Assembly (NCBI RefSeq): GCF_012940005.1
Contig: NZ_SPMX01000017.1
Span: forward strand, 1 to 64,000
Reading direction: 5' to 3'
DNA: 64,000 nt
Source: Candidatus Accumulibacter contiguus
GTDB lineage: Bacteria; Pseudomonadota; Gammaproteobacteria; Burkholderiales; Rhodocyclaceae
The position numbers were made by a program, and so were the translations under genes. Position 1 is the first letter of the stretch. The number at the start of each line of letters is the position of its first letter. Below, piece by piece: positions 15,260 through 47,014 of this stretch. Below the pieces are notes generated by a model. That model did not search any database. It saw only the letters and a program-made list of their open reading frames with translations, and had not been told where the DNA came from.

Positions 15260-16508
15260 ATGGCCCTTCCCTACGAGTTGCTGATCGGTCTGCGCTATAC
15301 GCGCGCCAAGAAGCACAACCACTTCATTTCCTTCATCTCGCTGATCTCGATGTTCGGCATCGCGCTGGGCGTCGCGGCGCTGATCGTCGTGCTGTCGGTG
15401 ATGAACGGTTTTCAGACCGAGTTGCGGTCGCGCATTCTCGCCGTCGTCTCGCATGTCGAGATTACCGGCGCCGGCGGCGAAATGGCCGGTTGGGAACAGG
15501 TCGCGAAGCAGGCCGCCGGACAGCCGCAGGTGCTTGCCGCCGCGCCCTTCGTGCAGGCGCAGGGCATGCTGGCCTACGGGCAATCGGTACGCGGCGCGCT
15601 GGTGCGCGGCATCCTGCCGGACCTCGAGGACCGGGTCGCAGACTTTCGCCCGCACATGAAAAGTGGCCAGTTCGACGCCTTGCAGCCGGATCGCTTCAAC
15701 ATCATCCTCGGTTCGGAGCTGGCGCGCGCGCTGGGCGTTTTCGTCGGCGACCGGGTAACGCTGATCGCACCGCAGGGCGTGGTGACCCCGGCCGGCGTGG
15801 TGCCGCGTCTGAAGACCTTCCATGTCGTCGGTCTGTTCGAGGTCGGCATGTACGAGTACGACAGCGGCCTGGCGCTGATCCACCTCGCCGACGCGCAGCG
15901 TCTGTACCGCATGGATGACCGGGTTTCCGGCGTGCGCCTGAAACTCGACGACCTCTTTGTGGCGCCGCGGGTGGCGCGTTCGCTGGCCGGCAAGCTCGAT
16001 ACCCATGCCTTCATCAGCGACTGGACGCGCAGCCACGCCAATTTTTTTTCGCGCCGTGCAGATCGAGAAGAACATGATGTTCATCATCCTGTCGCTGATC
16101 GTCGCCGTAGCCGCTTTCAACATCGTCTCGACGCTGGTCATGGCGGTGACCGACAAACAGTCGGACATTGCCATCCTGCGCACGCTCGGCGCCAGCCCGG
16201 CGAGCATCATGGCGGTGTTCATCGTGCAGGGGTCGCTGATCGGTTGCGTCGGCCTCGGCCTCGGCGTCGCCGGCGGCGTCGCCCTGGCGCTCAATGTCGA
16301 TGTCGTGGTGCCGTTCATCGAGCGCCTGCTCGGTACGCAGTTTCTCGCCAAGGAGGTGTATTACATTTCGAATCTGCCTTCGGAACTGCAATGGAGCGAC
16401 GTGACGACGATTACCGGCGTCGCTTTTCTGCTGGCGCTCGTGGCCACCATTTATCCAAGCTGGCGTGCGGCACGCGTCAATCCGGCGGAAGCGCTGCGTT
16501 ATGAGTGA
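15260..16508 (+). CDS. lolC: Lipoprotein-releasing system permease LolC/E, frameshifted in a T8 run
   Basis: With one base removed from the eight-T run at 16042-16049, the gene encodes 415 residues of a classical LolC/LolE permease. The N-terminus is typical ([21 protein letters not shown], first membrane segment ~25-50), a periplasmic domain follows, and the last ~160 residues contain three membrane segments ending [15 protein letters not shown]. As printed, the frame shifts after SHANFF and reads nonsense to ~16504, while the correct C-terminal frame ([19 protein letters not shown] onward) stays open to 16508. LolCDE extracts lipoproteins from the inner membrane for transfer to LolA and is normally essential, so the extra T is probably an assembly error or is corrected by slippage. 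It overlaps lolD by 8 bases. Confidence 0.9.
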
Positions 16509-27762: not shown

Positions 27763-28411
27763 ATGCGTGTCGGCAGATTGCTGCTGGCCTTACTATGGAT
27801 CAGTTGCGCGGCCTGGGCTGAGGTTTCGCTGCCGCTGCCGCAAACGCTCGAAGAGGCCAGCGCGCAGCGGGAGAGAGCCGCGTCGATGCGTGCGGAAGCA
27901 GAGCGTCGCCACGAGGCCGAGCAAAAAAAATTGCCATACCAGGTTTCTGGTCAACGATTGTCTCGCGGCCGCCAAGAAGCGCTATACGGCGACGATCATC
28001 GAGGCTAGAAAGCTCGATCAACCGGCTCGCGATTTCCAACGCGAGGCAAAGAGACAGGAAATCGAGGCCAAGGAAGCGCAGCGGCTTGCCGATCAGCCTC
28101 GGCGCGAAGCCGGGCAGCAGGAGAGCGCCGAGCGTTTCCACGCCGAGGAGGCTGCGAAGACCGCTGCACGCGAGCAGAAGCTGGCTGCAAAAGCGGCCAA
28201 GGCTGAAGAAGGGCGCCGCAGAGAGGCAGCCAGGCAGGCCAAGAGACAAGCCAAACAGGAGAAACGGGCGCAGCAGGATGCCGAGCGCGAGCCAGGAAGG
28301 CTACCAGGGAAGCAGGCCGATCAGCCGACGGAACTGCCAACTGATCCGCCGGAATTGCGCGCTCGAGTTCTGCCTCAGGCGATCCCCTGGCTGGCGAGGT
28401 ACTCTTCGTAG
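27763..28411 (+). CDS. Secreted coiled-coil protein, frameshifted in an A8 run
   Basis: The gene starts at ATG 27763 with aaggag just upstream and has a signal peptide ([19 protein letters not shown]). Removing one A from the run at 27923-27930 joins the signal-peptide frame to a second frame. This gives 215 residues: a conserved-looking [19 protein letters not shown] segment (a Cys pair around F-x-V-N-D-C-L, common in betaproteobacterial periplasmic proteins), then a long Ala/Glu/Lys/Arg-rich coiled coil. As printed, the signal-peptide frame stops at 28008. It is probably periplasmic and co-transcribed with the MscS-like gene; function is unknown. Its 3' end overlaps the convergent ABC-F gene by 37 bases. 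Confidence 0.7.
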
Positions 28412-29997
28412 TTGCCGAGGTAGTTGATCACCTTGCCGTCGATGCGCACTTCGAGAATGCGGGTGGCGAGCGATGAAACGAATTCGCGGTCGTGCGAGAC
28501 GAAGATCAATGTTCCCTTGAACTTCTCGAGCGCACTATTGAGCGACTCGATCGATTCCATGTCGAGGTGGTTGGTGGGTTCATCAAGGACCAGAATGTTC
28601 GGTCGCATGAGCATCAATTTGCCGAAAATCATCCGGCCTTGTTCACCGCCAGAGATCACCTTGACCGCTTTCTGCACTTCATTGCCCGAGAACAAGAGGC
28701 GTCCGAGCGTGCCGCGGACCAGCGTAGACAGGTCATCCCCATCGCCGACGCTGCTGCGTGCATAGCCGGCGATCCAGGCGGTGAGGCTGAGGTCGCTGTT
28801 GAATTCGCTGGCGTGGTCCTGGGCATAGTAACCGGGGCGAGCTTTCTCCGCCCACTTGATACTGCCGCGCTGGGGTTGCAACTCGCCCATCAGCAACTTC
28901 AGCAGGGTGGTCTTGCCGACACCATTTTCTCCGATGATTGCCAGACGATCGCCGCCGTTGAGCGTCAGGTCGAGCTTGTTGAAGATCTTTCGCTCGCTGT
29001 CGTGGTAGCCGAAGCTCAGGTTCTGGATTTCGACGGCCTGCCGGTGCAGCTTCTCCTTTTCGTCAAACTCGAAACGGATCCACGGATACTGGCGCGACGA
29101 AGGCTTGATATCTTCCGGTTTCAGCTTGTCGATCAGCTTCAGGCGAGAGGTTGCCTGTTTGGCCTTGGAAGCGTTGGCCGAGAAGCGGCGAACGAAATTC
29201 TGCAGCTCGGCGATACGTTCCTTGGCCTTGGCGTTGGCGCTCTGCTGGCGCTCGCGGGCCTGTGTCGAGGCTTCCATGAAGTCGTCGTAGTTACCCGGAT
29301 AGACGGAGATCTTGCCGTAATCCAGGTCGGCCATATGTGTACAGACCTGGTTGAGGAAGTGTCGATCATGGGAAATGATGACCATCGTGCTGTTGCGCTC
29401 GTTGATCGCGTTTTCCAGCCAGCGGATGGTGGCAATGTCGAGGTTGTTGGTTGGTTCGTCGAGCAACAGGATGTCCGGGTCGGCAAACAGCGCCTGGATC
29501 AAAAGAACGCGCAGCTTCCAGCCGGGAGCGACATCGCTCATCGGGCCAAAGTGCTGTTCGGCCGGGATGCCCACACCGAGCAGCAGTTCGCCGGCGCGTG
29601 CTTCGGCAGTGTAGCCGCCGTATTCGGCGAATCTGGCTTCCAGGTCGGCGGCGTGCATATAGTCTTCCTCGCTCGCCTCCGGATTGGCGTAGATGGTGTC
29701 CTTTTCAAGCATGCAGGCCCACATCTGCTCGTGACCCATCATCACCACATCGATCACGCGCTGTTGTTCAAAGGCGAACTGATCCTGGCGCAGATAGGCC
29801 ATGCGTTCGTGCGGATCCTTGGAGATGTTGCCGGCGCTGGGTTCGAGTTCACCGGCCAGGATCTTCATGAAGGTCGACTTGCCGGCGCCATTGGCACCGA
29901 TCAGTCCGTAGCGATAGCCCTCGCCAAACTTGACCGAGACGTTTTCAAAAAGGGGCTTGGCCCCGAACTGCATGGTGATGTTATTGGCGACGAGCAC
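28375..29997 (-). CDS. ybiT: ABC-F family ATPase, YbiT type
   Basis: The 540-residue soluble protein has two ABC ATPase modules and no membrane segments. Module 1: Walker [10 protein letters not shown] (~36), a signature region reading [14 protein letters not shown], characteristic of the YbiT group in place of LSGGxxxR, and Walker [14 protein letters not shown]. An ABC-F linker (~240-310) is rich in Arg, Lys and Ala. Module 2: [24 protein letters not shown], and [16 protein letters not shown] proteins bind the ribosomal E site and modulate translation; YbiT's exact role is unsettled. The gene marks the left flank of the defence island. Confidence 0.92.
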
Positions 29998-30083
29998 GAA
30001 GAAACCTCGGTAAAATCATCAGGTTGCAAAAGGGCGATATTGTACCCCAGCGGCCGTCGATGCGCCTGTTCCGCATCGTTGCT

Positions 30084-30236
30084 CAGCAATTCTCATGTTG
30101 GTCAAGGTGGCCTTCTGTTCTCCCACCGAGCATCTGCGAATGAGCCAGATTCAGGGACTGGACCCCACTCATGGCTGGCAGAAAGGCACTTTCCGGCGAA
30201 CTCGCTCCATTGTTTGAGTCACAATGAGAATTGCTG
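30084..30236. repeat. 13-bp inverted repeat pair bounding ~150 bp at the island edge
   Basis: Arms cagcaattctcat (30084-30096) and atgagaattgctg (30224-30236) are perfect inverted copies separated by 127 bases, lying directly between the ABC-F start and the stop of the defence operon. The layout looks like a small non-autonomous element (MITE-like) or a recombination scar; no gene is inside. Function is inferred only from symmetry and position. Confidence 0.5.
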
Positions 30237-30241
30237 CTCCA

Positions 30242-33200
30242 TTACTGACTCTTTTCCAGAACAGCAACCCTCGTCGCCCCACCATGCTGGGTTACCCGTG
30301 GTCGACAACGCACCTTCATGGCACCTTTGGAAAACGACTCGTCTGTTGCCTTGCTGGACCAGACATAGGCCTCACCCGCCTTCAGCGCCGCCATCCGCTC
30401 CGGTGTGAGGTTGGCCAGCGCCGCATTGGCCTTCTGAATATGCTTCAACCATGCCGGCGAGTTGAACTTGTGCATGATGATCTGGCTGGAGAGTTCGATC
30501 AGGCTGACGGGCACCGAAGGCGGATCCTGGCTGGCAACCATGATGCTCACCCCTTTGTGCCGCATTTCACGGACGACCGCGATCAATCCGGCAACCAGAT
30601 CCGGGCTCTCGATGTACTTGTGCGCCTCGTCAAAAACCACCAGCTTGTTGAAGCTACGCCCATCCACCCGTGCGTCGGCAAACAACTGGAGCAACACGAC
30701 GAAGAGGCCAAGCGCCTCATCCTTTTCGATGAACTCATCGCGCAGGTCCACGATCACCAGGCGACCCGGAAGCACCACATCGGTCAGTGACGCGGCATCA
30801 TCAATGTACTCGCTGGCCAAATCCAGTCGCATACGTGCCAGGTCCTTCAGGTGGTCTGGAACCGACAAGGTATCAATCCCGCTGCGCAATCCATCGAGCG
30901 TGATGTGGTCACGCATCGACTTCATGATGCGCATCAACTGCCGTATGTAGGTCGCCTGATTGCCTACCGCACCCATCAGGAACTTCCAGTGGGAAGCCTT
31001 CAGCTCCGCTGCTGAAAATTGCAGTGGCAACACCTCGATGTCCGGATACTCTGCCTGTCGCTCGTCCAATTTGTCAGCCGGCACAAGGAGAACGACGTCT
31101 TCAAGTGCCCGAGGTTCGGCACCGTAAGTGTCTCGCAACTGCTGTACCTGTTCCTTGACGGAATTCGCTCCGACCATCGACGTAAACTCTGGCTTGTAGT
31201 CCATCGTCGGGCTGTAATGGAAGATCACGGTTGCCAAGGGCTCTGGCAAAATATTGATCCCCGGAATCATCAACGAGGCCATCTCGGCCACCAGACCGAG
31301 CGTGTAACTCTTGCCACCGCCCTGCACCCCGAACAGGCTGATCGTATGCGTCTGGTTCAGATCCAACGCCACCTTGCGACCGGAAACTTCCCCGAGAAGG
31401 CCATACTGAGGGGTGGCAATTGTAGTCCCCAGCATGATGTCGTATTCGGCGGTGCTGGCAGGCGGCAGGCTCTTCGATACAGCGTGATCGAATGCCGACT
31501 GGCTAGCCGAAATCACGGGCTCTGCACTCGAATCTGGCGACGCGACAGCCACCGGCGCCTGCACCTCGGCGCGGTCACGCGATACCTTGCCCAACGGTAA
31601 CTGAGGCACATCGTGCACTGCCTTTGCCGATTCCACGGATGTTGACCTCGTATCAACTACCAGGCTGCGGTCCACCCCTTTAGGGTAGAACTGCCGATCG
31701 CCCCCGTCCCATGACACTGTGCGATCACGCCCGAGACTTACGAACGCCGCCTTGCCGAAGGTCGGTACGCCAGGGGCCAGGCTGCGTCGACGTACCAACT
31801 CCTGTGTGATCTCCTTCGTCACATCCGGCCCCGTAGCCGGCGCAAAAGTGACCAAAGACTCGGTTTCCACCACCGCCGCATCCACCAGCTGTTCGATCAG
31901 GTCCCGACCAATCCGGTAGTACTCGATTCCGTGATCCACCTCTGGTGTCTCGGTACCGACCTTCCTGAAATCGAAGACGATTGCGCTGCGAGTGAACTGC
32001 AAGCGATAGGGCAGATCATCGAGGTGACGCAAGAAATACCGCGCCTCCTCGGCGGCGTCCGGCATCACAAGGCCGTAGCGCTCAGAACGTTCCAGGTAAA
32101 ACCCGAGCAACGACGCCAGATCGTAGTTCTTGATCGGGCGATCGGGCCGATCAATCGCTTTGCGATGCGGATCAAAGTGGTACGACAAGACCTGCTCGGT
32201 CTGCGAAATCTGCTCGGCAATAGACGTTTTGAGTTGCTCATAGGCTGCCACGTCGCCAAGCTGCGAGTAGCATTTCACTTCCACCAATCGGCAGGTGATC
32301 ATTCGGCCATTTGGATCAAGGTCGAACAGCGCCAGGTCGGTGCGACGGAAGCTGACCTCATCGCCAAGTTCCATCGCGTTCTGGCGCAGAGCACTGTACA
32401 ACTCCAGATGCGCATCCAGCGGGACAACAATCTGGTTCAGGAAAACGCCCTGATGTTCAAGGAACAAGCGCGACAGCGCCAGGCCCATCGCCTCTGCGCG
32501 TTGCGTCGGCGACGAAAGCAGCTTCAGTGCGAGGCGCCCGGAAAGCGAGCGTAGCTGATCAAGCATCACCAAGGCATGTTTGCCGCTGCTCGGCAACCCA
32601 TAGTCGGCCAATAGCGGTACCAGCAGGGCTTCCAGTTCTGCCACCGAGCGCGACGTGATCACCAGACGATGCCCCATCGCATTGGCCATATCAGGCGAAT
32701 GATCGATCAGATAATCCGGACGAGTGGGATGGCGCCGATGGTCGAAGAACTCGATGCCGAGGTTCCGATCCATCGTCAGAACCCAATCGCTTACCTCGTG
32801 CACCTGATGCAGCATGGCCCGTTGCTCGGCCGAGAGAGACAGCGCGATCACCGGACGAGCGTTGGGCAAGGCCTGAGAACGCGATACGCTGGCCAACGCT
32901 ACCGACAGCAGGCGCGACATGGTGGCCACGAGATCGGTGAGTTCCTCGGCATCTTCCAGTGCCTGCGCACCCCCCATGCAGCGGCTGCCTCAGCCAGGTA
33001 ATCGACTGCTCGTCCTCGCGGTATTTCACGGCATAAGGCTGTACCAATCCGTGGACAAAGGCGCACTCCTCTGACGCGCCGGCATCAATCGCCCGAATTT
33101 CCTCCGCCGGGAAGAGATCGAACAAGAAACTCAGATGTGCCGCATGCTCATCTGGCGCCTTGCGAAACTCCTCGATCGAACGGATGGCCAGCCGCAGCTT

Positions 33201-35807
33201 CGGCTGCAGATGGCTTTCGGTAGGGGTGGCAAAAGCATCCACCTCGCGCCCGGTAACTGCCGAGTCGGGAGCAAGAAGCTCGTTCAGCGCGTCACCAGTC
33301 CCAGGCGCGTCGGGATCGGGAACCAACAGGCGGACGTCGTAACGAAGATCGGAAAACTGAGAATTTCTCTGCATGCCCACCAGCACGTCGGCGAGCACGG
33401 CAGCGCGCCCTGCATTGAAGGCATTGATGGTCAGCGTTCTGACATAAGGGTGCTGGATCATATAGCGCTGTACGCGAGCCACCAGATAATCGGCATCGAT
33501 CATCGAACCGCCGACCGATGGTTCCGCCAGGCTGAGCGCAGTACACACCTCGCCGATCAATCCCCGTGGGTCATTCTCGTCGGCAGACGCATAGAGTGTC
33601 CAGAACGGTGTGATGTTATCCACAGCCAATACGGTGCGGCCCAGCTCATCGCTTTGCAACAGCACTGGCGGGAAGCCTACCGGCGCAAGCTGCTTCAAGA
33701 CGGCGTCGCGTGTTGACACCACAAACTCACGATCAGCCTGCCGGGCTTGTTGCAGCCATTGCTGCGCCAGATGTGCCCAGGTCGTGTGCCAGGTGATGCG
33801 TAGCGGATGGGTTGGCCCGAGCAATACCGCCTCGCGCCTTCGACCGCGATAGTCATCAATGACCAGCACCACGGAATCGACTGTCAGCGCACCGCGCAAC
33901 TCCTCGAAAGCATCTCTCGATGTCACCGCATCGGCTGACGCAGCTCTTACCATTGCCGCCTCAAGCCAATCAACATAGGCGCTGGCATAATTCTCCGCCG
34001 GCTCTCGCAGTCCAATTAGATCGCTTCCTTGCAGGATCAATTGTTCATCCCCGCGCAGGATGGCCTGGAACAAATGCTGCCGAGCCTCGACGAAACGACC
34101 ACATTCCACGGTTTGTGGCCAGCTGTAGGACAGCGTTGCCAGGCTGGCTCCTCTGGCAGGTGTAATTTCCAGGCGCAAACGATTGACTGCCACCGGATCG
34201 GCAAGGAATCGACGTTCGATATCGGCAAGCAGGCTGGATATCAGCACGTTCGCCTTACCTTCCTTGCCGAGCCTGATCTCCAGCGTATCCGAACCGACCG
34301 TCCTGCTTCTTGCCTGCCGTTCGACCCAGGCGCAAGCCGATACCGTGATGGCTTCCGGATCACGCTCCTGCACCACTGCTCTGAAGCGCGCCTGAAACAG
34401 CGCATGCGACAAGCTGTGCTCGCGAGGAACGGCCCGCTGTGGTGGCTCGACTTCCACGTCGTCGTCGGTTACAACGTAGAACAAATCGCTTTCATTGGGC
34501 CGGTTGGCCTCTTCTCCGTCTACCACCCGGGAAAGCGACTCTCCGGCTTCATTCAAGAGCGCGACGCGATCTCCATCCTTCGTCTCGGCGTAGACACGAA
34601 CGAAGTGCCACCCTTCTTCCCAGTCGATCTTGCCGATCGAGGAAAACGCGACCGTGGCGGCGTCCGTCGCCCTGGTCCATGCCGCTTTTCGGCGACGCAG
34701 GCCGGTCGGACCATTATCCCGAGACACCACCTCGGCGACGAATCGGCTCAGGCCTTCGACTTTCGAAGGCTGTGGCTCAACGCGAAAAGACACGCTGAAC
34801 TTCTTCTGACCCGTCCTGGAGATGGGCAAGACACGATGGCCAATCAGATCAGTCAGGCGCGGATCGGTCTCATCCGCCTTGACCAAGGGCAGATCGGGAA
34901 GCTCCACATCGCCGATGTAGATCGCATCCGGACTGATTCCGCCATCCGCGAAAACCCAGCGGTTGAATGCCAAAGGCCAGTTGGCTCGATCCTTGACGAT
35001 CTGGTGCGTCCATTCTCGCGGATCAGCCAGACCCACACGCGAGAAGAAGTCCCCCATCTGCCGGCAATAGGCAGGATCCATCAAACCGAGCTCCAGTGCC
35101 CGCGCCCGTTCGGAGCGTGCTGACCAGGTCACACGCTCAACACACTCCCGATTGCGCGCCACACGCGCCGGCGCACGATCCGGAACTGACAGCAGTTCAA
35201 AATCGGGCACCAGGCCCAATTCGAACAAGGCCGCACCAATGGCCTGGGCATCGAAGTCATTGAGTTGTGCGGTCAGCAGAAAACGTGCGACCGACGCCTC
35301 ATCAGCAAAGCGCCAGGCTCTGCCCTCGCTCTGCAGATCCTCCAGCAACACCTCGACCGCACCCTTGATTGGCGCCGGCACCGACGCGAGCAAGCACGAG
35401 ACCAGGTCGCCATAGGCGTCATCGATCGAGATCTCCTCGAACGTGGCTACGCCGAAAGAGTCCTCGGCGGAAGCGCGCAGGTCGTTCGGTACAAAGACCA
35501 GCAGCGGGGCGCGCAACTCATCGTTGGGCAAGGGGTTCCGAAGTTCCACCAGCTTGGTGCTTGATACCGCGATGTTCGGGGCCGACTGCCGCAGGGCTTC
35601 GTCGGCGAGAACCACGACTGTCGCGCCCGGAACCAGGCTGCGCAGGCCCCCACACAGACGCACCATCAAGTCACGGTCGAGGTCCGTCACCCGCATGCAA
35701 TGCCCCGCCTCCCGTTTGCCGAGCACTGCCGCGAAACGCGGCAGCAGGACAGATTCCAGGGCGACGTTCAGCTCCTGGCTAGTCAGTTCGCGCAGTCCCT
35801 GAGTCAT
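30242..35807 (-). CDS. MADS MAD8-like giant protein with C-terminal HerA-type ATPase, frameshifted in a G6 run
   Basis: Two minus-strand frames join if one C is removed from the run at 32969-32974. ITWLRQPLHGG then continues as AQALEDAEELTDLV, giving 1,854 residues. The first ~1,000 residues match no domain I can name beyond a VLLGPTHPLRITWH motif seen in large restriction NTPases. The C-terminus is a HerA/FtsK-like ATPase: Walker A FGVQGGGKSYTLG (~1490) and Walker B LVVFDEAHKYIE (~1720), followed by a sensor-like VASQDPPSVP. Size and layout resemble DptH, the ATPase of phosphorothioation-dependent restriction, and the terminal ATP-binding protein of MADS. It probably executes DNA restriction. 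Its ATG overlaps the preceding stop by 4 bases (ATGA). Confidence 0.75.
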
Positions 35808-36866
35808 GCCTTCGCTCGCTTTTCTGCAATCGTGTAGCGTGGCACAACCGTCTGAGTCACGTAGGCATCGGACAGGTCACGGTAAAAGCCGATCTCTCGC
35901 AAGCGGGCAGTGAAGGCTTGCAAGTTGGTCCGCAACGCCTTTCGATCATCAATCGATGGCGCCGGGAATCCTTCATCAAGGGGCAACTGATCAATGTACA
36001 GCCCGTAGCGCTCTCTCAGAAAGGTCAGCAGATCGTCAATCCGCATCTCGGCAGTGTGGTAGCCGGTCTCGCCAACACGCAACACGGCGATCTGCAGCAG
36101 CACTTCCAGCAAACGGCTGTCGAGCACAAATCGCCGCGGCGCATTCTTGGCCCGTGACTGAGCGAGAAGGGCACCGGAGCGGTTCTTCAACATCGTTGAA
36201 TCGAGAGATTCAATGATGTAACGGCGGTGAAATGCCCCGCGCTGGGCCAAGAGAATTTCGATGTACGTTTCGAAATCCGAAAGCCCCATTTTCGACAAGG
36301 CGGTCGTTTCCTCATCCCAACCGCCGGCATCATCCCTCAGCGAATCCAGGAGATTCGCGAGACGGCCACTGAAGAATTTCTCACGCTCTTCCCGGTAAGG
36401 CTCGGCCTGCAGAGCAAACAGTTCACCCACCGAGAAGTGCCTGTTCAGACCCCGAATCAGTTTGTTGCGTGCCACGAGATAGTCGGCGAACTCATCCAGA
36501 TTTTTCGCGGCAAAGTACGCCCGGACAAAGGACGGAATCCTTCGGTAGCAAGCATCGGCAGAGCGCTCGGCAATCGCCACCGTCGCCGATTCGGCGCTGC
36601 CTGTCAGGTCCACGAACAAACCGGGCCGGTGAGGACAGTCGCCCTGGGGTTCTCGCAACTGCCGAGGCTTCATCGGACAGGCCGACTCCGAACACAGCGG
36701 ATTCGCGTTCTGCAAGCGTTGCCAGGCAGGCAGCAATTTAAGCAGACGCAGGTGATAGAGAGCGAGGTGAAAAGACAGCAGCAGCTTCAGGTAATCCACC
36801 ATGACCGCGCGCGGCATGAACGGCCGGTAGAACAGCAGACGCTGGATGTCTTCGGCCAACAGGTTT
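35804..36866 (-). CDS. MADS MAD7-like helical protein (or C-terminus of the preceding NTPase)
   Basis: This frame of ~350 residues is open from 36866 to the stop at 35804. It is rich in helix (MVDYLKLLLSFHLALYHLRLL), contains a Cys-rich stretch (CSESACPMKP then CPHRPG) that could bind zinc, and ends in basic KRAKA. A TTG at 36857-36859 is the only start near its beginning, but the sequence reads smoothly from the upstream frame if one A is removed at 36864-36866 (ELII then NLLAEDIQRLL). It could therefore be either a separate MAD7/DptG-like gene or the tail of the kinase-NTPase. Its stop overlaps the next gene's ATG. No catalytic motif is visible. Confidence 0.6.
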
Positions 36867-39800
36867 GATGATCAACTCGCTGGCAATGGCATCGGTCCCC
36901 TGACCGACAAAACGCAGCGCCAGCCCGGTCGGCAGATGTTCGACAAATCGCTCTTCGGAGGTCCCCATCCCCTGCGCTTGCACTTCCAGGTCGAAGCGCT
37001 CGGCCGGGAAAAGTCGGTAGGTACGTACCGTGCCATGCTCGACCTGTCGCAACTGCAGGGCGAGATGACCGCCCAGTCGAGCGGGACGCTGCAGGCCCTC
37101 GCCCCGATTGATGGCATGCAACAGTTCGGCAATCAAGGGCGCAGCGGGCTCGGTGCCGCGGACGATGTCCGCCATCCGCTTCGCGGAGCGATAAGGCAGC
37201 ATTCTTTCCCAGCCGAGGTCTCGTCGCTCGAAAAAATATCGGCGCCGCGCCATCGCTACGTACTCGCGATGGGGCTGGGCCCGCTGGCGTACCGACGCCC
37301 CGGACACGCCACGCGGCAATTCTTCGAACAAGCGCTTCAATACCTCCTGGTCGAAATTGCCCCGTTGCTCGAAACGGAACAGCGCGCGGTCATCGGGTCG
37401 CACAAAATCGAGGCTGCGATCGAAGCGCGGATCCTCCTGCCGGCCGACATCGACCTCGGCCAGCAGCGACACCAGTCGATCCCCATTCGGCTGGCCGCCA
37501 CCCAGCCAACTGTTGAAGTAATAACTGCGGGCGATGTCGCCATGCTGACCGCTGGCATACAGCGCATGCATCTCGGCGCAGTCCCGGTTGCCGATCAGCA
37601 TGAACGACAGCGCTGAACGCAGGTCGCGCATGGTGATGTGCAAGCGCCCGCGCAGGTGCGTCATGGTGTAAAGCATTTTGAGCCGTTCGATCAGCCGCGG
37701 GCCAGCCGTCTCATCCTGGAAGCTGCGCGCGTTGTGCAGCGCGTAGCACGTCGCCTGCAGATCGCACTGCTCGCAGGCCGACCAGTGCTGAGTTTCCGTC
37801 ATCCGCTGCAGCGTCCGCTCGAGAATTGAACCGCAGGCCGTATCGGCCACCACACTGCGTAAGTTGAGATTGACCACCACCACGCCGGATTCCGCCTGTC
37901 CGGTCGCAAAACCCCGCCGAACCAGCGCACTCAGTGCGCTGAAATCAGGTTCGTGGGCAGCCAGAAAATCCACTAGCCGCCCCTCGTTGATGGCGATCAG
38001 TCGCGTTTCGTCGGTCCGCCAGTGGGTGGGATCCCGACCGGCAAAGGGCGCGAGAAAATCGACCAGCACCTGGTTGTTGTCCTTCTCGCCTCATCCTGAC
38101 TGCCGTCATAGTTGATCAGGTAGCGGCGACCGGCAAGCTCGATGCGGCTGCCGTTGGGCAGACCACGATCCACCGCACCGCCGCGTGCTTCAACATCCTT
38201 CTCCAGTCGTTGCAGAAACGCCGTCTTGCCATCGCCTGCATTGCCGGTGATCAGCACCAGACGGAACTCGCCGGCCAGCACCGCCGGCAACAGTGCCCGG
38301 TCGAGGGCGGTATCGACATAGGCCGCGTGTCCCAGGGCATCCATGCCGCGCGTACCCGCATTGCTGCGTCGGCTCTGGCTATAGAGCGTGATCAGGTGTG
38401 AGACGAAGGGGTTGCTGTTCGAGGTCTCTCCCGGTCCACCCGAGGTCGTGGCCACATTCACCGGCGCCATGCCCGGAACCCGGCGCCGAGCGTGACGCAC
38501 CTGGCGCAGCGCGTCGCCGAACTCGATCGCCGAGCCAAAGCGCTCGGCACGACGCGGCGCAATCGACTTGAGCAGTACGGTCACCAGATCCGGCGCCAGG
38601 TCGGAAAAGCCGGAAAACTCGCGCGGATCGGGTGCCGGTCGGTTCGCTGGCGGCTCGCTCGTTTCCCAGGGATAACGAGCGGTCAGCGCCTCGTAGAGCG
38701 TCAGGCCGAGCGCGTAGAGATCGCGATCGGCGCGCTCGCCGTTATGCGGGATGACCTCCGGGTCAAAATCCGGGGGCAAGTAGCGGCGCGAGCCGCCGCC
38801 GCGTGCGTCACGGTTGTCGGCGCGCACCGAGACGTTGAAGTCGATGATCTTCGCCCCCTTCTGCGTCCACAACAGATTGCGCGGCTTGATGTCGCAGTGG
38901 TGAAAGCCATGAGCGTGCAGGTGGGCCAGCCCATCGATCACCTGTTTGCCGAGTTCGAGCGCATCGTCCGGCGCCAGCAGATGCTGCTGGATCATGTCGG
39001 CCACGTCGGCGCCTTCGACGTACTCGAAGACGAGAAAGGGAACATCGCTGCCGGGCAGCACCTCACCGTAGAGCACCCGCCCCACATGCGGATGCTCGGG
39101 AATCTGCACCAGATTGCGGTATTCCTTTTTCAGGCGCTCGTACGTGGAATGGCGATCGTGGAGAATCAGCTTGACCGTTCGCGGCACGTCGCCCAGCGTG
39201 TCGATTACCTTGTAGACCACGCCGAAGCTGCCCTGACCAAGCTTCCTTTCGACAACATAGGTCCGGGTCAGCGCATAACCCGGCGGTAGGTTGCGGAAAT
39301 CCACATCGCTTTCGGGCTCCGGCGGAACCATCGTCGATACTGACGCCGGTTCGGCTACGGGGGCCAAGGCGGGAGAGAGGAGGGCATTCAGCGCCGCCAG
39401 GGCCGCCAAGGCCATCGGCCGTTGCGCCTCGTCGAACTGGCAGAGCGCCTGCAACCAGGCATCGAAGGCTCCATTCAATTCCGGCCGCAACTGCGAAGGC
39501 GGCACCGGGAAAACGCCGTCGGTGTCGAAGACACGCGTTGGATCACCATCAAACGGACGCTCGCCAGTGAACAACTCGTAGAGAATCACCCCGGCGGAAA
39601 ACACATCGGAAGCACGGTTCGCCACTTCCGGCGCCCGATACGCCTCGGGCGCCACATAGGCCTTTTCCACCAGATCAATGATCGAATCCGCGATCGTCAG
39701 GCTGCGATCCACGCCCAGCTTCGCGAAGTCGAAATCGGTGATGCGGGTGGTGCCATCCTGGCCAATCAGAATCGCCCCCGGCGTGAGATTGCGATGCACG

Positions 39801-40753
39801 ACGCCGTGCTGGTGGGCATGGGCCAGCGCCGCCAGCAGGTCTTTCGCCACCCGCCACTTCTGGTCGAGCGTCAGCGCCAGTTGCGGTCGCGCCAGATGTA
39901 CGGTCAGTGCCTGCCCTGACGCATCGTCGAGGATCAGGATGAATGCGCGGTCGTCGTCGGTCGCGAAGAAATCGCGCGCGGCAACGATGTTGGGGTGCAG
40001 CGGTAGCCGTGAGAGCGCTCGATAGGCGTTGGTGATACGGTTGACCTGCGCCTTGCGCGCCTCTTCGGGCTGATACGGATCGGCTTGATACACGCGCAAG
40101 CGCGCCGTGCCACCGGCAAAGGCATTCTCGGCGCGGTATTCGGTATAGGCATCGGCGGCGCCGAGCTTTTCCGTCACCTGCCAGTGACCGAAGCGCAGCA
40201 CAGCCGAGGCCGGCTTGAGCACTCGCAGCGCATGCAGGATCAACGACTGCTGCGCCAGGATGTTTCTGGAGAAGCGCGCCGGGATGCTCGTCGCATCCTT
40301 GAAGTAGCGCTCGGCATCCTTGAGTTTGACCACCGCGGGCGCGTCCATCCCAGCCCGGTCGTTCACATGCGCATCAGGCGCCGTGAGCAGAATCGCGGCA
40401 TCGACGTAGATGTTCTCCAGTTCCGCTCGCCCGGGGTGACTCTGGGTGATCAGCCCCTTGAAGGCGCGCGAATGGCTGCGCAACTTGGCGAGCGGCGAAG
40501 GATAAGGCGCGCGGCCTTCCGGATACCACCGGGGACCGTAGACATCGATGCTGCCACGCGTACCCTTGACGTCGATCAGGTACAGGGCATGCGGGGCCAG
40601 CAGGCCGATGTCGATCTCGAAGCGCTCGCCCTGGCGTTCGAGTTCGAAGTTGTGCCACAGGACGAAACTGTCCGGCAAGTGATCCCGCAGGTGGGCAATG
40701 GCGATGCGCTCGGCATCGTTCATTGGCTGGCCGATGGGGATCACTTTGGCCAT
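36864..40753 (-). CDS. MADS MAD6-like NERD nuclease - pseudokinase - kinase - P-loop NTPase, frameshifted
   Basis: It starts at ATG 40753, overlapping the S-subunit stop by one base. Residues ~10-130 form a NERD nuclease-like domain with EIDIG and LIDVKG (PD-D/ExK layout). Residues ~190-430 are kinase-like but read VVHRNLTPG and TDFDFAK, so the catalytic HRD Asp is Asn and DFG is altered: a likely pseudokinase. Residues ~495-740 are a second kinase with LGQGSFGVVYK, VKLI, HCDIKPRNLL (~619) and IIDFNVS, probably active. A P-loop NTPase follows (LVLITGNAGDGKTAF, ~838). A single base is missing near 38089-38090; restoring it yields YDGSQDEGEKDNNQVLVDFL and continues through IAINEGRLVDFL, resembling DptF. 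It probably senses and transmits infection signals by phosphorylation (inference). Confidence 0.78.
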
Positions 40754-42157
40754 CAGTCTTCCTCTGATTTGATTTTAGCTTCAACAATCTTCCTTGCCAG
40801 ATTCTCCAAATCAATTGCCTGACTTCGTAGCGCCGAGACGTTCAAGCCGCGATGGCCTAACCGTTTCCAGAGTGGATGGCTGCGGGCCAGAACCGTGCAA
40901 TCACCAATCTGGCGAACGTCAAGGTGAGGTATGGACGTACCAAATGCTCTCGCCTTGAGCTGTCGAATGCCGCATTCACAAGACAAGAAGACGAAAAGGA
41001 ACCCTGCGTCTTCTTCGGAGTGACAATGAATCCGAATGGCATCCTCAGAAACCGCGCCGCCAATAATTCGACCATAAGGGAGCACGGTACGGCCGATGAC
41101 TCCAGAAAGCTGCCCCGAACGAGGAACAAGCAGCGTTTTTCGGGAAACTATGCAATGCGCCGCAAGCCTTGAGGGCAATCGATAGGAAGGTTCTGGATCA
41201 TTCCAGAAGATTGCTGAAGTACCAAACAGCGGAATCCCTGCCGTGTCACCGTCCAGCACGATACGTTTGAAACGGTTCGGCTCTTCGATGCCAGTTACCA
41301 CACTCCGCAGAGGAGAGAGATCTGCCCCGCTGGATTCCAGTGCTGCTATTGCTTGCCGATGGTAACTGCTGTGAAAAAATGCATCCAGTCGGTATTGCAC
41401 GTCTACCGCAGGCGCAATCGAGACGGAAAAGGGCGTGGATGATGGCACCGCACGTAGATTTGCAAGCCTAAGCGTGCTGATCAGCTCGGAAATGGCCTCA
41501 CGGAGAATGTAATTCGCTTTATCTCGTTTGTTCGCTGCTTGAGCCACCAGCAAGTCGACTTTCCTCTCGAAATCATGGCCAAAACGCGGTACAGGAAGGT
41601 TGGCGATGTGCTCCGGCTCAATGTGCTGAATGATCGCGCCATAAGTGCCAGCCACAACCAACGGCACGCCATACTTGCTGGAGAGAAAGGCATAGAGGTA
41701 ACCCGGCAAAATCTTGGATTCATCCGGCACTACTCTTAAGACGTCCTCAGAACATGCCATGCCGGCCATATCTGGCCGAACGTAAGCCATTCGGCCAATA
41801 GTCCCAGAGCGCGTAATAAGAGACCAGGACTCTTTCAACAGCAGCCGTGGATTCCGCTCCACTTGCTTCTTGGAAATCAGTGGCAGAGTTGATAGGTCAG
41901 CCAAGCCGATCGCTGAGCTGCCCATGAACGGAACACCGTATCTACGATCATCGACCCAGCTCCGACTCTCCCTTCCGGAGTCGAAAATGCCAGTGGTGAC
42001 ATCCGCAAGCTTGTCCTTCCTTTCGCTAAGAAGTCTTAGAGCATCCCGCGCTTCAAGCGCCCCCCGACATATAGGGATTGCAATCCAGCCGCCTGCCACC
42101 TTCTTCGAGCCAATCCGACCGCACCACACGTGCATTCCTGAAGCTTGCGAATTTCAT
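40753..42157 (-). CDS. MADS MAD5-like type I specificity subunit (HsdS-like), frameshifted in a G6 run
   Basis: It starts at ATG 42155-42157, overlapping the upstream stop (ATGA). Removing one C from the run at 42060-42065 fuses MKFASFRNARVV to LEARDALRLL and gives 467 residues; without that change only an internal ATG at 42135, with a wrong N-terminus, is open. Two target-recognition-like halves are visible (around DDRRYGVPFMGSSAI and IPLFGTSAIFWND), each followed by SxxGxxG-type segments (LITRSGTIGRM; LVPRSGQLSGVIG) and helical spacers. These are the classic type I S-subunit pattern that gives the methyltransferase its bipartite target. No HsdR restriction subunit gene is present in the window. 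Confidence 0.8.
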
Positions 42158-42813
42158 GTAGGCACCTCAGCCGGAAACCATTCCTGCAACGCAGCATTCA
42201 GCTCCATGAAAGCGACATCGGTACAGCCTTTGATCGAGATCCGCCGGGCGATCTCTTCATAGATCGCTGAAGAGCGCGGTCGGCGCGTTTGCCGCAGCAC
42301 CCATTCCGCGGCCTCCTTTGGCCGCCGGGGCTTGGCCTCGTCTGCGAGCCAGAATCCTTGCTGCGCAAGCACGGTGCGCAGACCGGACTCGCCACGGTAG
42401 CGCAGGGCGTCGGCAACCAGCGGATTGTCCTGCCAGAGCCAGTTCTCGAGTTCCGGCTCGATGGCAATCACCTTGATAGCACTGGCTTGCCAACCGCTGC
42501 TGACCAGTCGGCCGCTGACGTCATCGACGATGGCCTGCTTGCCGGGTGACCCATCCCATTCGCAATCGAGCGCAACCAGCACACGTTCGTGGGTATTCAG
42601 GTAGGGTCGCAGCAGTTCATGGGCGCGCAGGTAGACGCCGGGATCGTTCCCCCCTTCGTCCACCAGCAGATCGCCACCCACATCGGGATTGAAGTCGAAA
42701 GGGGCACAGCCCAGACTGCGGTGCCACTGGTCTCGGGTGAGGTAGCCGCGGAAGGCTGCAGCCATGTTGCTGTCGGCGACCAGAATGACGCAGGGCCGTT
42801 TGTGGTCGCTCAT
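42154..42813 (-). CDS. MADS MAD4-like small acidic protein, TOPRIM-like partner of the AAA ATPase
   Basis: The 219-residue product starts at ATG 42811-42813, overlapping the ATPase stop by 4 bases (ATGA). It shows ILVADSNMAAAF at the N-terminus, a central RVLVALDCEWDGSPG and IAIEPELENWLWQD. This layout of acidic clusters resembles DUF4276/TOPRIM-like proteins that are encoded beside AAA15 ATPases in several defence pairs. The C-terminal part is rich in Arg and Glu and includes RRPKEAAEW. If the TOPRIM-like reading is right, the Asp and Glu residues would bind metal for nuclease activity, but this is inferred from short motifs and context. Confidence 0.65.
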   Translation of the reverse strand: MSDHKRPCVILVADSNMAAAFRGYLTRDQWHRSLGCAPFDFNPDVGGDLLVDEGGNDPGVYLRAHELLRPYLNTHERVLVALDCEWDGSPGKQAIVDDVSGRLVSSGWQASAIKVIAIEPELENWLWQDNPLVADALRYRGESGLRTVLAQQGFWLADEAKPRRPKEAAEWVLRQTRRPRSSAIYEEIARRISIKGCTDVAFMELNAALQEWFPAEVPT

Positions 42814-44156
42814 CCGAGCACCCCGGCCGCGAACAGGCTGCCGAGGTCGATACCGCCACGCCATTCCCTGAGACGCGGGTGATCGCTGCCGGCGACCATC
42901 TCCACTCCACCCGCGCTGGCCAGCCGCGCGCACAGCAACTGGTCGATCTTGGTGCTGGCCAGCACCACCGGAGAGTGTGAAGATATCCACACCTGACTGT
43001 CGTACATCGACGAGAGCGACTGCAACACCGCATCGATCGCATAGGGGTGGAGGCCGTTCTCGGGTTCCTCCGTCACCAGGATGACAGGTTGCCTGGCGAG
43101 GTAGGGCAGCAGCGTTAACGCCAGGATACGCAGGGTTCCGTCGGACAGTCCGGAGGACGACACGCTGTAGCCGCCACGGTAGGTCAGCACGAAATAAGCG
43201 TGGTGATCGTCTTCGCGCTCACGTACGTCGATGTCGACAACCTGCGGCAAGGCGGTTCGCACGTGATCAATCCAGTCCGCGTAGCTCTCGCTGCGATAGT
43301 CGGCTGCCGCAGATCCGCCGGCGCCCTGGCGCTTGAGGTCGAACGCCAGCCACGGGATATTGCGGCCGCTGGGAATGACGGTTCGCGGCTGACCAGGCGG
43401 GCTAGCCTGCCGCATTTCAGCCCAATTGGGGTCGAGAAAAACCGCGCCTCCGGTCAGCAGCTCGTAGAGCCAGCGCGCTGCCGGGTATTCGCTGCTCGAC
43501 TCATACAGAACACGCGGCAAGGCCAATACCGTGGATGGGAGATCAATCTTGCCCGAACCTCCTTGCCGTCGTTTTGGCGATTCCGGACTGATTTCGGTGC
43601 CCGATATGCTGTCGCGCTTCAGTACCGTCAACCAGTTCCTGTTATGTTCGGCCTGTGCACCATGCAGTTCGACAGCCGCGCGCTCAGGGGCGAAAGCCTT
43701 CGGAAACAGGAATAGATACTCGTTGCGAACGTGCAGCGGCCCACCATCAGCCAGCTCGAAGCTGATTTCGTAGCGCAGGTGAGTGGGCCAGCGTTGTTCA
43801 TTTGAACTGAACGCTTCGCGCGCTCTCTGGTTTTTCAGGCGGGCTATGGCGCCATTGCGAACATCGTTGGCGACGCCTTCCGGAAGAGCAGCCTCGAGAG
43901 CCAGAGAGAAGCGGGTACCGCGCCGGGCAAAAAGAATCTCGCGCAGATCCCCCGTGCGAGGCAGAAAGTCCGGCCGCTTGTCACTGAAGGCGGAGCCGAC
44001 CGTCGTCGCGCGCAACAAATCACCGAACAACACCGGCAGATCGAGCAGCGTGGTCTTGCCCGCTCCGTTGGCACCAACGATGACCTGAAAATTACTCAGA
44101 TCAATCGCCAGCCGCTCGAAGCAGCGGTAGCGGATCGCTTCCAGCCGCGTGATCAC
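42810..44156 (-). CDS. MADS MAD3-like AAA15 (SMC/OLD-type) ATPase
   Basis: The 448-residue protein has an SMC-like N-terminus (MITRLEAIRYRCFERLAIDL), Walker A VGANGAGKTTL (~28-37), a long insert of ~270 residues, an ABC-type signature VSSSGLSDGTLRILAL (~340), Walker B ILVTEEPENGLHP (~365) and an H-loop WISSHSPVVL. This is the AAA15/AAA_21 family found in OLD nucleases, RloA, PARIS AriA and related defence ATPases, but no C-terminal TOPRIM domain is fused; the next gene (42154-42813) probably supplies the partner. It overlaps the methyltransferase stop by 4 bases. It likely acts as an ATP-driven sensor or switch. Confidence 0.8.
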   Translation of the reverse strand: MITRLEAIRYRCFERLAIDLSNFQVIVGANGAGKTTLLDLPVLFGDLLRATTVGSAFSDKRPDFLPRTGDLREILFARRGTRFSLALEAALPEGVANDVRNGAIARLKNQRAREAFSSNEQRWPTHLRYEISFELADGGPLHVRNEYLFLFPKAFAPERAAVELHGAQAEHNRNWLTVLKRDSISGTEISPESPKRRQGGSGKIDLPSTVLALPRVLYESSSEYPAARWLYELLTGGAVFLDPNWAEMRQASPPGQPRTVIPSGRNIPWLAFDLKRQGAGGSAAADYRSESYADWIDHVRTALPQVVDIDVREREDDHHAYFVLTYRGGYSVSSSGLSDGTLRILALTLLPYLARQPVILVTEEPENGLHPYAIDAVLQSLSSMYDSQVWISSHSPVVLASTKIDQLLCARLASAGGVEMVAGSDHPRLREWRGGIDLGSLFAAGVLG

Positions 44157-46208
44157 TGCCCGGGCTCCGGATGCCTGGCGCGGAATTCCGCGTAGGCGGC
44201 GGCAATGTCCGGCAGGTCATCGTCGAGGATGCGCTCCTTGCGGTGCAGGGTGCGCACTTCCAGCCTGCCGCCGATGCGCACCTTCTCTTCATAGGTCTTG
44301 TCGACGAGGATCTCTTCGCCGTCTGGTCGGCGCTTGTAGAGCACATTGCCTCGGCGGTCGAAACCGACTTTCTCGGCAACGGCCATGAATACGGGGTAAT
44401 CCTGCTTCTTGCCCAGATCGCTGGCCTGAATCTCCTGCGTGGGCTTCTTCTTGAGGAACAGCAGGCTGGTGAGGATATTGACGTTGGCTTCGACGATGAA
44501 GGACTCGACCGGCAGGTCGATGCTGGCGAGCACCCAGCAATGACGCAGAATCCAGTAGCGGATGTACTCGTCACCGGGGTTGCCGAGAATGCCGTCCGGC
44601 AAAACGATGCCCATGCGGCCGCCCGGCCGCAGCCACTGCACGCAACGCTCGATGAACAGCACCTCGGGTGAAACGGCGGGCTTGATCGCCTGGGTCATGA
44701 CGAAGCCATCGCCCTGGCGTACCCAGCGGCGGGCGAGTTCATACTGCTCGAGAATGGTTCGCTCGGTCACCGGGATGTCCGAACCGAAGGGTGGATTGGT
44801 GGCGATGACGTCCACGCTTCCGAGGCGAAGCGTGTCATTCGCCGCTTTGACGCCCGGCAGGTGACCGACGGGAAATTCGAGCGAGTTCATGTGGTACAGG
44901 TGGCCAAGCGAATTGCCGGCCATCATCACGTTCATCTGCGCGGCACGAACGAGGAAGGGATCGAAGTCCGAACCGAAGAGCTTGTTGGCGGCGAAATCGG
45001 CCAGACGGTCGCGCAGCGAAATGAATTCCTGGGTATCCTCGTCGCCGGGCCTGACGTTTTTTTTCGTCGTGAAAAACCTTGTTGAGATAGTTGAGTGTCT
45101 CGACCAGAAAACCACCCGTGCCGCAAGCCGGGTCCAGTAACCGTTCGCTTTCCTTCGGGGCAAGCATCTGGATGACCAGCCGAATCGCGCCGCGCGGCGT
45201 GAAGTACTGACCACGATCGCCGCGCAGATTGGTACCGACGATCTCCTGGTAGGCCGCACCTTTGGCATCGACATCGGTGCGCGCAAAGTCGTAGCGTGAG
45301 AGTTCGGAAACGATGAACGCCAGTGCCCGGTCAGACAGGGTGATTTCTTCGTTACCTTTGAAGAGGTCCGGGTAGGCACGCTTCACCGCTTCAAAAAGGG
45401 GCACGATACGGAGGCGGATTTCCTTCTGCCCTTCGGGACTGAACGGTTCGTAGGGGCCGGCCCAGAAGACACGCTGCTCGCCGAGACGACGCTCGTCGTA
45501 CATCTTGCAGAAGATGAGGTAGAGGAACTGCCAGAAGGCGGCGTCCTTGGGCATGCCCTCGTTGCCATGGATGTAGTTGTGGCAACGACGGAAAGCCGTG
45601 CGCAGCATGACCGGATCGGCCCGCCGCATCCTGGCGAGCGACGCGCCTTCACGGGTACCAATGGTCTCGTCGCCCATCGGCCAGTCGGCGATGGGTTTGA
45701 AGCGGGTATCGAAGCGAGTGACTTCCTTGCGGAAAAAGAAGAACTCCAGCCCGTTGGTCCACAGTCCGTACTCGCAAGTCTCGACCTCGGCCATGACCGC
45801 TTCAAGCAGTTGGAATTCCTTGCGCGCCTCGTCCGGGTCACGCATGCGATAGGCACCCTTGGTGCCCACCTTGGGCTCCTTGTCCACGGCAACAGCACGA
45901 TAGAGATTCTGGTCCTCGTGCGGGGTGCCGGGACGGAAGATGGCGATGTCGATTCTCTTGTTTCGCCCCGCGACTTTCACGCCGTAGTCCGGCTCCATGT
46001 CCTCGGCAGCAATGCCATATTCATGGATGATGGCGCGCGCAATGCGCTGCCGCACACGCTCTCTTTCGCTGTCCTTGACAGGATTGCCGGTGATGTAGTC
46101 GAAGACCTTGCCTTCTTCCAGCGCGCTGTCTTCCGTCTCTTGCTCCGCCTGAGCAAGATCGCTCATCTCCTCGCCCTGTTCGGAGCTTGCTGCCTTGACC
46201 CTAGCCAC
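44153..46208 (-). CDS. MADS MAD2-like type I DNA methyltransferase (HsdM-like), frameshifted in an A8 run
   Basis: A GTG start at 46206-46208 has ggagg six bases upstream and overlaps the preceding stop; an ATG at 46166 is weaker. Removing one T from the run at 45057-45064 joins the two frames (VFHDEKK then NVRPGDEDTQEF), giving 684 residues. An N-terminal ~200-residue domain (RVRQRIARAIIHEYG and KRIDIAIFRPG) resembles HSDR_N-type nuclease-fold regions. N6-adenine methyltransferase motifs follow: SAM motif I LLDPACGTGGFLVETL (~357) and catalytic NPPFGSDIP (~470). With the S subunit it should methylate a bipartite site and mark self DNA. As printed, the frame stops shortly after motif I, so activity depends on whether the extra base is real. 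Confidence 0.85.
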
Positions 46209-46356
46209 TGGAACCCTCCCTGTTTTCAAAATCGTCGCTACTGGCCGCTGCGCCACCCGCGCGCACCCAGGCATCGACATCCTGTTTCTTGAACGGCATG
46301 TAGTGCAGCATACTGCGCGAGCAGTCGGCAAGGGAGGATCCGGTAATCGATGACAC
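46201..46356 (-). pseudogene. Truncated HTH/excisionase-like gene (MAD1 remnant)
   Basis: A minus-strand frame of 51 codons from a GTG at 46354-46356 ends at a TAG (46201-46203) that overlaps the methyltransferase GTG. It contains LHYMPFKKQDVDAWVRAGG, close to the C-terminal 'F-K-x-x-D-V-D-A-W' end of excisionase/MerR-like helix-turn-helix domains, then a short acidic tail. An in-frame stop lies just upstream (46360-46362), leaving too little for a complete HTH. The first gene of MADS loci encodes an HTH protein, so this is probably its 3' end, cut where the LysE gene begins. It may equally be an intact small peptide; confidence in the HTH reading is moderate. Confidence 0.5.
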
Positions 46357-46393
46357 GCCCTAGCTCTTGGGGCTTGTTGTGGCGTAGCCTGTG

Positions 46394-47014
46394 TCAGCGA
46401 TTGTCGAGTGCCAGTTTGACACTGAAACCGAGCAGGGCCGAGCCCGCCAGACGGGTCGCCAGCGTGCGCAGCAGCGGCAGCGTCCTCAGTCTGCGCGCGA
46501 CCGCGTTGCCAAGCAGCACCAGGCCGGCCTGGTAGAGAAAGCTGAGGAGGGTCACGTGCGCGATCATCACGCCAAGCGTCAGGGCGGAGGCGTCGGCGCG
46601 CAGAAAGAGGGGGAAGAAGGCCACGAAGAAGAGCATCACCTTCGGGTTGGTGAGACTGACCGCAAAGGCTTGCCGGAAATACACCCAGGCGCTTTTTCTG
46701 GCCTCCTGGTCGCCATTGCCACTGGCAAGCGGTCTTCGCAACAGTTGCAGCCCCATCCAGCCCAGATAAGCGGCACCGAACCACTGCAGGCCCTGCAAAA
46801 GGGCAGGGTTTGCCTTCATCACGGCGGCCAGGCCGACAATTGCCGCGACCATATACCCCATGTCGCCGAGCAGTGTGCCGAGGACGGCGCCGATGCCGGC
46901 GGCGATGCCGTTGCGTGCAGTGGCGTTGAGAATGGCCAGCGTGCCGGGACCGGGAATCAACTGGAAGACGAGAATCGCGGCGACGAAGCTCGCGTAGTTC
47001 TGGATTTCAAACAC
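46394..47014 (-). CDS. LysE/RhtB family amino-acid exporter
   Basis: The 206-residue protein is of typical length, with five to six membrane helices. The family signature is at the N-terminus: FVAAILVFQLIPGPGTLAILNATARNG, where P-G-P is conserved in LysE/RhtB exporters, followed by GIAAGIGAVLGTLLGD and later NPKVMLFFVAFFPLF. It exports amino acids or derivatives across the inner membrane; the substrate is unknown. Its stop codon lies just 38 bases from the start of the MAD1 remnant, so the gene marks the right flank of the defence island and is possibly transcribed into it. The HD hydrolase gene ends upstream (47036), 21 bases before its start. Confidence 0.9.
   Translation of the reverse strand: MFEIQNYASFVAAILVFQLIPGPGTLAILNATARNGIAAGIGAVLGTLLGDMGYMVAAIVGLAAVMKANPALLQGLQWFGAAYLGWMGLQLLRRPLASGNGDQEARKSAWVYFRQAFAVSLTNPKVMLFFVAFFPLFLRADASALTLGVMIAHVTLLSFLYQAGLVLLGNAVARRLRTLPLLRTLATRLAGSALLGFSVKLALDNR

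Follow-up and report, generated by a model that had tools for sequence, protein, structure and literature searches.

The minus-strand genes between positions 30242 and 46299 of the window (the whole 64,000-nucleotide stretch of Candidatus Accumulibacter contiguus contig NZ_SPMX01000017.1) were identified, by profile matches and gene order, as MADS (methylation-associated defence system), a known anti-phage operon. The operon is a recognisable but damaged copy, with an ordinary layout and no new architecture. Its features are collected in Table 1. Comparison of the ORFs with NCBIfam (hmmscan) gave matches above the curated cut-offs for the MAD3, MAD4, MAD5, MAD6 and MAD8 equivalogs and matches below the curated cut-off for MAD2 (both halves) and MAD7 (3' part). 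These matches stood in the MADS order on the minus strand, so that the window genes show the same gene order in one operon, and the PADLOC models mad2 to mad8 also matched them. NCBIfam MADS equivalogs were the best matches of eight of the ten ORFs; the exceptions were ORF 36738-38069, which had no NCBIfam match, and ORF 30242-32977, with weak HerA-type matches only. The profile matches and the MADS order, which is also that of a Piscinibacter plasmid described below, indicate that the name MADS given in the initial annotation is right, and the agreement in gene order that it had stated was borne out along the operon. MAD2 to MAD8 families could thus be assigned in order, and the 35-aa mad1 remnant peptide matched neither NF047737 nor PADLOC mad1.

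Table 1. Features of the damaged MADS operon and its surroundings (positions in the window)
Feature	Position	Strand	Description
ABC-F gene	28375..29997		flanking gene
Island	30071..46365		~16.3 kb; absent from the empty site of G010, G021 and G005 (DNA alignment)
MITE-like repeat	30084..30236		153 bp, with perfect 13-bp inverted repeats at its ends; separates mad8 from ABC-F, at the right edge of the island
mad8	30242..35807	-	large ATP-binding protein, PD-(D/E)xK-like motif and HerA ATPase; ORFs 32691-35807 and 30242-32977
mad7, 3' part only	35804..36871	-	first ~200 codons absent; junction within 36864-36871
mad6	36864..40753	-	NERD, two kinase stretches and P-loop NTPase (DndF-like); ORFs 37997-40753 and 36738-38069
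mad5	40753..42135	-	specificity (S) subunit; open; NF047740 458 bits, cut-off 400
mad4	42154..42990	-	open; NF047734 263.2 bits, cut-off 160; match from residue 65 (about 42798)
mad3	42810..44156	-	AAA-type ATPase; open throughout; NF047739 547.7 bits, cut-off 420
mad2	44153..46166	-	N6-adenine DNA methyltransferase; two frames, ORFs 44835-46784 and 44153-45379
mad1 remnant	46201..46299	-	last 32 codons and stop of a small HTH gene; HTH part lost
LysE-type exporter gene	46394..47014		flanking gene

In relatives, MAD1 is a ~71-aa HTH protein encoded upstream of mad2, found in six of seven fetched regions (absent in L143); two of these peptides passed the NF047737 cut-off and one matched PADLOC mad1. 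For mad2, whose start at 46166 is our reading, the two ORFs matched NF047738 at profile positions 1-365 and 357-654 with 523.9 and 463.6 bits (cut-off 720); hence both halves are present, in two frames, and a full-length mad2 was not found. The frame changes inside 45048-45082, where an 8-nt A/T run (A8) is located, and the Pfam domain HSDR_N_2 was detected inside MAD2. The genes mad3, mad4 and mad5 all passed the cut-offs of their equivalogs; mad4, for which "TOPRIM-like" was the label of the initial annotation, had no Pfam match. The match of mad6 to NF047741 (745.2 bits, cut-off 460) was also above the cut-off, and its NERD and Pkinase domains were also found in Pfam. Its frame is broken inside 38033-38087, outside any long run, and its last ~75-80 codons are absent. 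The mad7 gene matched NF047733 at profile positions 204-529 of 529 with 395.3 bits, just under the cut-off of 410, and is therefore not full-length. In mad8, the break is at 32970-32975, a run of six (G6); NF047742 matched the first mad8 ORF, with a score that passes the cut-off, and PADLOC mad8 matched the second.

The layout of MADS in relatives was analysed in one genome collection, which was scanned with the MAD8 C-terminal protein; 118 stretches were obtained and 80 were kept, corresponding to 79 distinct loci. The kinase and NTPase parts of MAD6 were in a single ORF in all 72 of the 79 loci where both were found. Both halves of MAD8 shared a single ORF in 71 of the 73 loci with both (the exceptions being L011 and L070), and MAD7 had at least 500 aa in 72 of the 73 loci where it was found (exception, L070). 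The order mad5-6-7-8 on one strand was observed in every locus with all four genes (67 of 67, out of 79). The mad2 halves were in one ORF in the seven fetched regions, and the mad2 frame was open for 687-996 aa in the 12 relatives searched. A whole mad1-mad8 operon, with eight adjacent genes all above the NCBIfam cut-offs, was present on the Piscinibacter gummiphilus plasmid NZ_CP136338.1 (L284, 42984-68759), ~2 kb from TnsA, transposase and TniB genes, a neighbourhood that fits mobility. The C-part of its MAD6 is 77% identical to that of the relative L063.

This standard layout of the relatives rules out a new operon type. The description of the operon as complete-length and of unusual architecture had to be given up: mad1 is truncated, mad2, mad6 and mad8 lie in two frames each, ~0.85 kb is absent at mad6/mad7, and it is in these frame breaks, the gap and the truncated first gene that the window deviates. 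The truncation of the first gene had been correctly noted, with the mad1 remnant standing at the operon head, whereas the single frame shared by kinase and NTPase, which had been taken for a deviation, is the common rule. A warning follows from this case: oddly split, overlapping ORFs may be genes that have been broken.

The island is probably an acquired MADS copy, now damaged, flanked by the genes of a LysE-type exporter and of an ABC-F protein. Its edges are approximate, with up to ~30 bp of difference between comparisons. The flanking genes are ordinary, as the initial annotation had stated, and an empty locus was seen in congeners. In nine of the 24 congeners searched, a single contig carried the ABC-F gene together with a close LysE match of full length, and in eight of these nine the two genes were 113-644 bp apart; in two more, G015 and G022, no more than a fragment of LysE was located close to the ABC-F gene. 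No close match to the MAD8 C-terminal protein was found in any of the 24 congeners, three of which gave weak partial matches. In 31 genomes, the DNA of the left edge (46280-46380) had no match other than itself.

The ninth of these congeners, G007 (L281 1889-6485), has a 5.6-kb insert at the LysE/ABC-F junction, encoding Tubulin_2 and NMT1-like proteins. Neither this insert nor the four ORFs at the left end of the window had a PADLOC match. The junction may be an insertion hot spot. In the three congeners with weak partial matches (L121, L122 and L123), open frames of 1,335-1,616 aa weakly matched the MAD8 C-terminal protein over its residues 27-309, at 31-32% identity; these are perhaps DndH-type proteins.

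The 153-bp MITE-like repeat occurs at seven places in its own genome, this one included, the other six being 75-92% identical, and at three places in G010 (88-90% identical). Two other repeated stretches were observed in the window. At ~8601-8730 lies a dispersed repeat of ~125 bp, for which G010 has at least 20 matches, and ~18735-18941, inside a chemotaxis-receptor gene, has many short matches in the same genome, which probably reflect shared signalling domains.

The gap inside the operon is located at the mad6/mad7 junction. When aligned to L063 or L010, the window leaves MAD6 near codon 1300 and resumes in MAD7 near codon 200; the loss, reckoned from the alignment coordinates, is about 842-847 bp. 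A search of the genome, which is 98.7% complete, found no second location for the lost MAD7 part (this search had no positive control). Neither the gap nor the loss of mad1 is a homopolymer error; a mis-join in the assembly or variation between strains could account for the gap. As assembled, the copy is probably inactive, since the encoded MAD7 is without ~200 N-terminal residues and MAD6 without ~75-80 C-terminal ones.

The remaining coding sequence does not look like the product of long neutral drift. No stops were present in nine pieces totalling 4,765 aligned codons (mad5 was left out of the count), an absence favoured by the choice of the pieces as open frames, and dN was well below dS wherever dS was finite. 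With mad3 included, the window had 183 private amino-acid changes, the most of the five sequences compared (130, 123, 67 and 71 in the others). Mad3 contributed 63 of them, and without it the counts were 120 in the window versus 126, 108, 61 and 66, so that there is no excess outside mad3. Long neutral drift was ruled out on these three grounds, and the decay is either recent or partly an artefact. The mad3 gene itself is far more diverged from its relatives than the neighbouring genes, with dN values of 0.23-0.27 to four relatives versus 0.10-0.16 in five relative-relative pairs. It is a diverged allele, as if exchanged from another MADS lineage.

One question is whether the single-base breaks are real. 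The window contains exactly three 8-nt A/T runs, at 16042-16049, 27923-27930 and 45057-45064, and none of 9 nt, and all three are at single-base frame breaks, in a LolC/E-like gene (T8), a small gene and mad2, respectively. Hence, an error of the consensus may account for the break in mad2. The LolC/E-like gene, a name that is our reading of a MacB_PCD match, is one 421-residue open frame in the congener G010, and the small gene near 27927 is in one frame in the ten other congener loci matched (of 19 other loci searched). The comparison with G010 flagged frame changes in flanking genes or ORFs near 10963, 16046 and 27927. The first was discarded, since there the two genomes differ in length by 20 bases in DNA that lies outside the PFK ORF, and the other two remain single-base changes.

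The A/T 8-mers were then considered genome-wide; there are 116 in the genome of the window (G000) versus 64 in the one-contig genome G010. A codon-usage frame finder was applied with four settings to 55 of the 116 sites (the three of the window included) and to 55 of the 64 in G010. In G000, one extra base was indicated at 15-19 of 19-22 callable sites (33-36 of the 55 were uncallable). Among the control positions, located 350 bp away, 44-65 were callable, and 2-7 of these showed a break of one kind or the other. The 16 sites called in G000 under the strict setting are 16 different sequences. In G010, breaks were observed at 14 of 23 to 21 of 30 sites depending on the setting, mostly in the opposite direction (controls, 0-2 of 46-55), and its 17 strict sites comprise 5 distinct sequences and are therefore largely repeats. 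With the first version of the finder, 9 of 55 sites had been called in G000 (frame broken at 8 and unchanged at 1; 3 breaks in 33 controls), and in G010 the number called was 4 of 55 (1 break). We read this pattern as a sign of homopolymer errors in the consensus and not of decay of MADS, with slippage as a less probable cause. The three single-base breaks were consequently dropped as proof of a pseudogene, given that A/T 8-mers break frames elsewhere in the genome, and we infer that the single-base breaks of the mad genes are at least partly consensus errors.

Taken to its limit, this would mean that living cells carry an undamaged operon and that the gap, like the frame breaks, arose from errors of the draft assembly. 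The coincidence of every window 8-mer with a break, one of them in a gene that is open in G010, the excess of extra bases over controls, the diversity of the strict-setting sites and the constraint on the mad fragments all agree with such errors. We nevertheless consider an intact operon unlikely, because the loss at mad6/mad7 and the truncated mad1 at the island edge are of another kind than homopolymer errors, the missing part of MAD7 was not found elsewhere in the nearly complete genome (with the reservation on controls given above), and the mad6 break falls outside a long run.

Still less probable is that the breaks are functional, in which case phase variation or slippage (programmed or transcriptional) at A8 and G6 would give full-length MAD2 and MAD8 in some transcripts or cells. 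The mad2 and mad8 breaks do lie at such runs, as does the break of the LolC/E-like gene (T8), and LolC is essential in E. coli, which was counted for this explanation. However, mad2 and mad8 are single ORFs in the relatives (in the seven fetched regions and in 71 of 73 loci, as stated above), indicating that there is no conserved slippery site, and slippage could not restore ~0.85 kb. A damaged copy, with some breaks probably added by the consensus, is thus the preferred reading. That the operon belongs to another system instead (type I RM, BREX type 2 or Dnd/Ssp) is almost certainly wrong: the PADLOC PglW profile matched MAD6 (1.6e-68), SspF, SspG and DndH profiles matched the 3' genes, and a generic PADLOC type II methyltransferase model outscored PADLOC mad2 on both mad2 halves, but the MADS equivalogs were best, and in the right order, for all but two of the ten ORFs, and neither PglZ nor HsdR, the mark of type I RM, was among the families listed for these ORFs, which in some of the PADLOC lists were the first 25, the only trace of the latter being the HSDR_N_2 domain inside MAD2.

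The matches to Dnd and Ssp profiles were pursued with the 3' half of the operon. In a profile-profile comparison (hhalign), the C-terminal part of MAD6 (MAD6C) aligned with DptF at 99.8% probability, with an E-value of 2.4e-27 over 493 columns. The part of MAD6 beyond the kinases, taken from L063, also matched an annotated DptF in tblastn (E 9e-9), and PADLOC SspF matched the intact MAD6 of L063 at 3.1e-27. In the MAD6C of 28 relatives, the GNAGDGKT motif, the I, A and N of LIAIN (134, 135 and 137) and C208, C211 and C217 are invariant. These coincide with the features given for DndF by Rakesh, Aravind and Krishnan 2024 (PMC10853773), which include a Walker B Asn and, in some versions, a Cys insert. 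The placing of LIAIN as Walker B is our own. The predicted model of MAD6C (pLDDT 84.6) shows, as we read it, a helical lid and an alpha+beta part; thus, the P-loop, the Asn in Walker B and the large helical lid of the DndF core were all found, in the MAD6 of relatives, on which this comparison was made. Foldseek, run with the MAD6C model against the PDB, returned nothing at or below E 0.001. By these comparisons, the C-terminal part of MAD6 is a distant homologue of DndF/DptF.

MAD8 aligned in its REase part with a DUF87 protein adjoining dptF and dptG on a Priestia plasmid (hhalign 94.9%, E 4.5e-8), with D...ExK aligned. Among 38 MAD8 sequences, D214 and E233 are invariant and K235 is conserved in at least 90%; K556, D783, E784 and Q817 are invariant as well. 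The protein therefore presents a conserved D...ExK motif followed by a HerA ATPase with invariant Walker residues, and the model of its C-half (pLDDT 72.9, pTM 0.47) matched HerA structures. An REase followed by HerA/FtsK is the arrangement of DndH, and on this evidence MAD8 is a distant homologue of the DndH-like DUF87 protein of the dptFG operon. For MAD7, the match to DptG was weak (hhalign 10.9%, E 0.0028) and PADLOC SspG matched the intact MAD7 of L063 at 3.4e-8; the relation to DndG is only suggestive. The cross-controls were low, with 0.2% for MAD7 versus DptF and 7% for MAD6C versus the DUF87 protein, the latter confined to the P-loop. The initial statement that dnd genes are absent from the operon is right as far as close ones are concerned and fails for distant ones, in view of MAD6C and MAD8. 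DndF proteins that carry an N-terminal fusion of NERD and of tandem kinases, inactive and active, are described in PMC10853773, and this is repeated in a 2026 paper (PMC12839542); the word MADS does not occur in PMC10853773. In the literature searched, from which the original MADS paper (Maestri 2024) stood apart, we found no statement of a link between MADS and DndFGH.

MADS, with mad1-mad8, was described by Maestri et al. 2024 (Cell Host Microbe) and, according to the papers that cite it, modifies DNA by methylation and restricts phage. In an intact system, MAD2 with the specificity subunit MAD5 would most likely methylate adenine at a set motif and so mark self, and MAD6, MAD7 and MAD8 would most likely act as a DndF-DndG-DndH-type machine against unmarked invading DNA. 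This proposal is drawn from the homology of MAD6C with DptF and from that of MAD8 with the DUF87 protein. MAD8 would combine a PD-(D/E)xK-like nuclease motif with a HerA-type translocase, MAD6 would serve as a sensor that binds nucleotides, with NERD and kinase domains as side effectors, MAD3 and MAD4 would be an ATPase accessory pair, and MAD1 a small DNA-binding regulator. This division of labour among the MAD proteins, including the roles in methylation and restriction, is inferred. We lean towards the view that MADS joins a type I-like adenine methylation module (MAD2 and MAD5, with MAD3/4) to a DndFGH-type restriction module (MAD6-8) in which MAD8 is the nuclease-translocase. If so, MADS would restrict DNA as DndFGH does, but guided by methylation where DndFGH relies on phosphorothioation. 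A 2026 review (PMC12904381) lists the restriction mechanism of MADS as unknown, and the homology of MAD6 and MAD8 to DndF and DndH names the likely nuclease and translocase of intact MADS, which is a concrete lead. The window itself adds one more, damaged, copy of a described system; the DndFGH link is the part worth following.

In comparison with known systems, the window has homologues of MAD2 to MAD8 in the order of MADS (methyltransferase, ATPase, S subunit, NERD/kinase protein, large ATPase) and differs from it in that mad1 is reduced to its end, mad2, mad6 and mad8 are frame-broken and ~0.85 kb is absent across mad6/mad7. The layout is also like that of the Piscinibacter operon, which is, unlike the window copy, whole and plasmid-borne. 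BREX type 2 has a PglW that is like MAD6 in carrying NERD and then kinase domains in its N-terminal half (PADLOC PglW), whereas the families listed for the window include neither PglZ nor BrxL and the C-terminal part of MAD6 is DndF-like. Finally, DndFGH/DptFGH and MADS have in common the likeness of MAD6C to DptF (Walker A, Asn at the Walker B site and Cys cluster) and, in MAD8 as in DndH, an REase-like motif followed by HerA, but the likeness of MAD7 to DndG is weak, and the MADS arm is tied to a methyltransferase/S-subunit module and not to dndABCDE.
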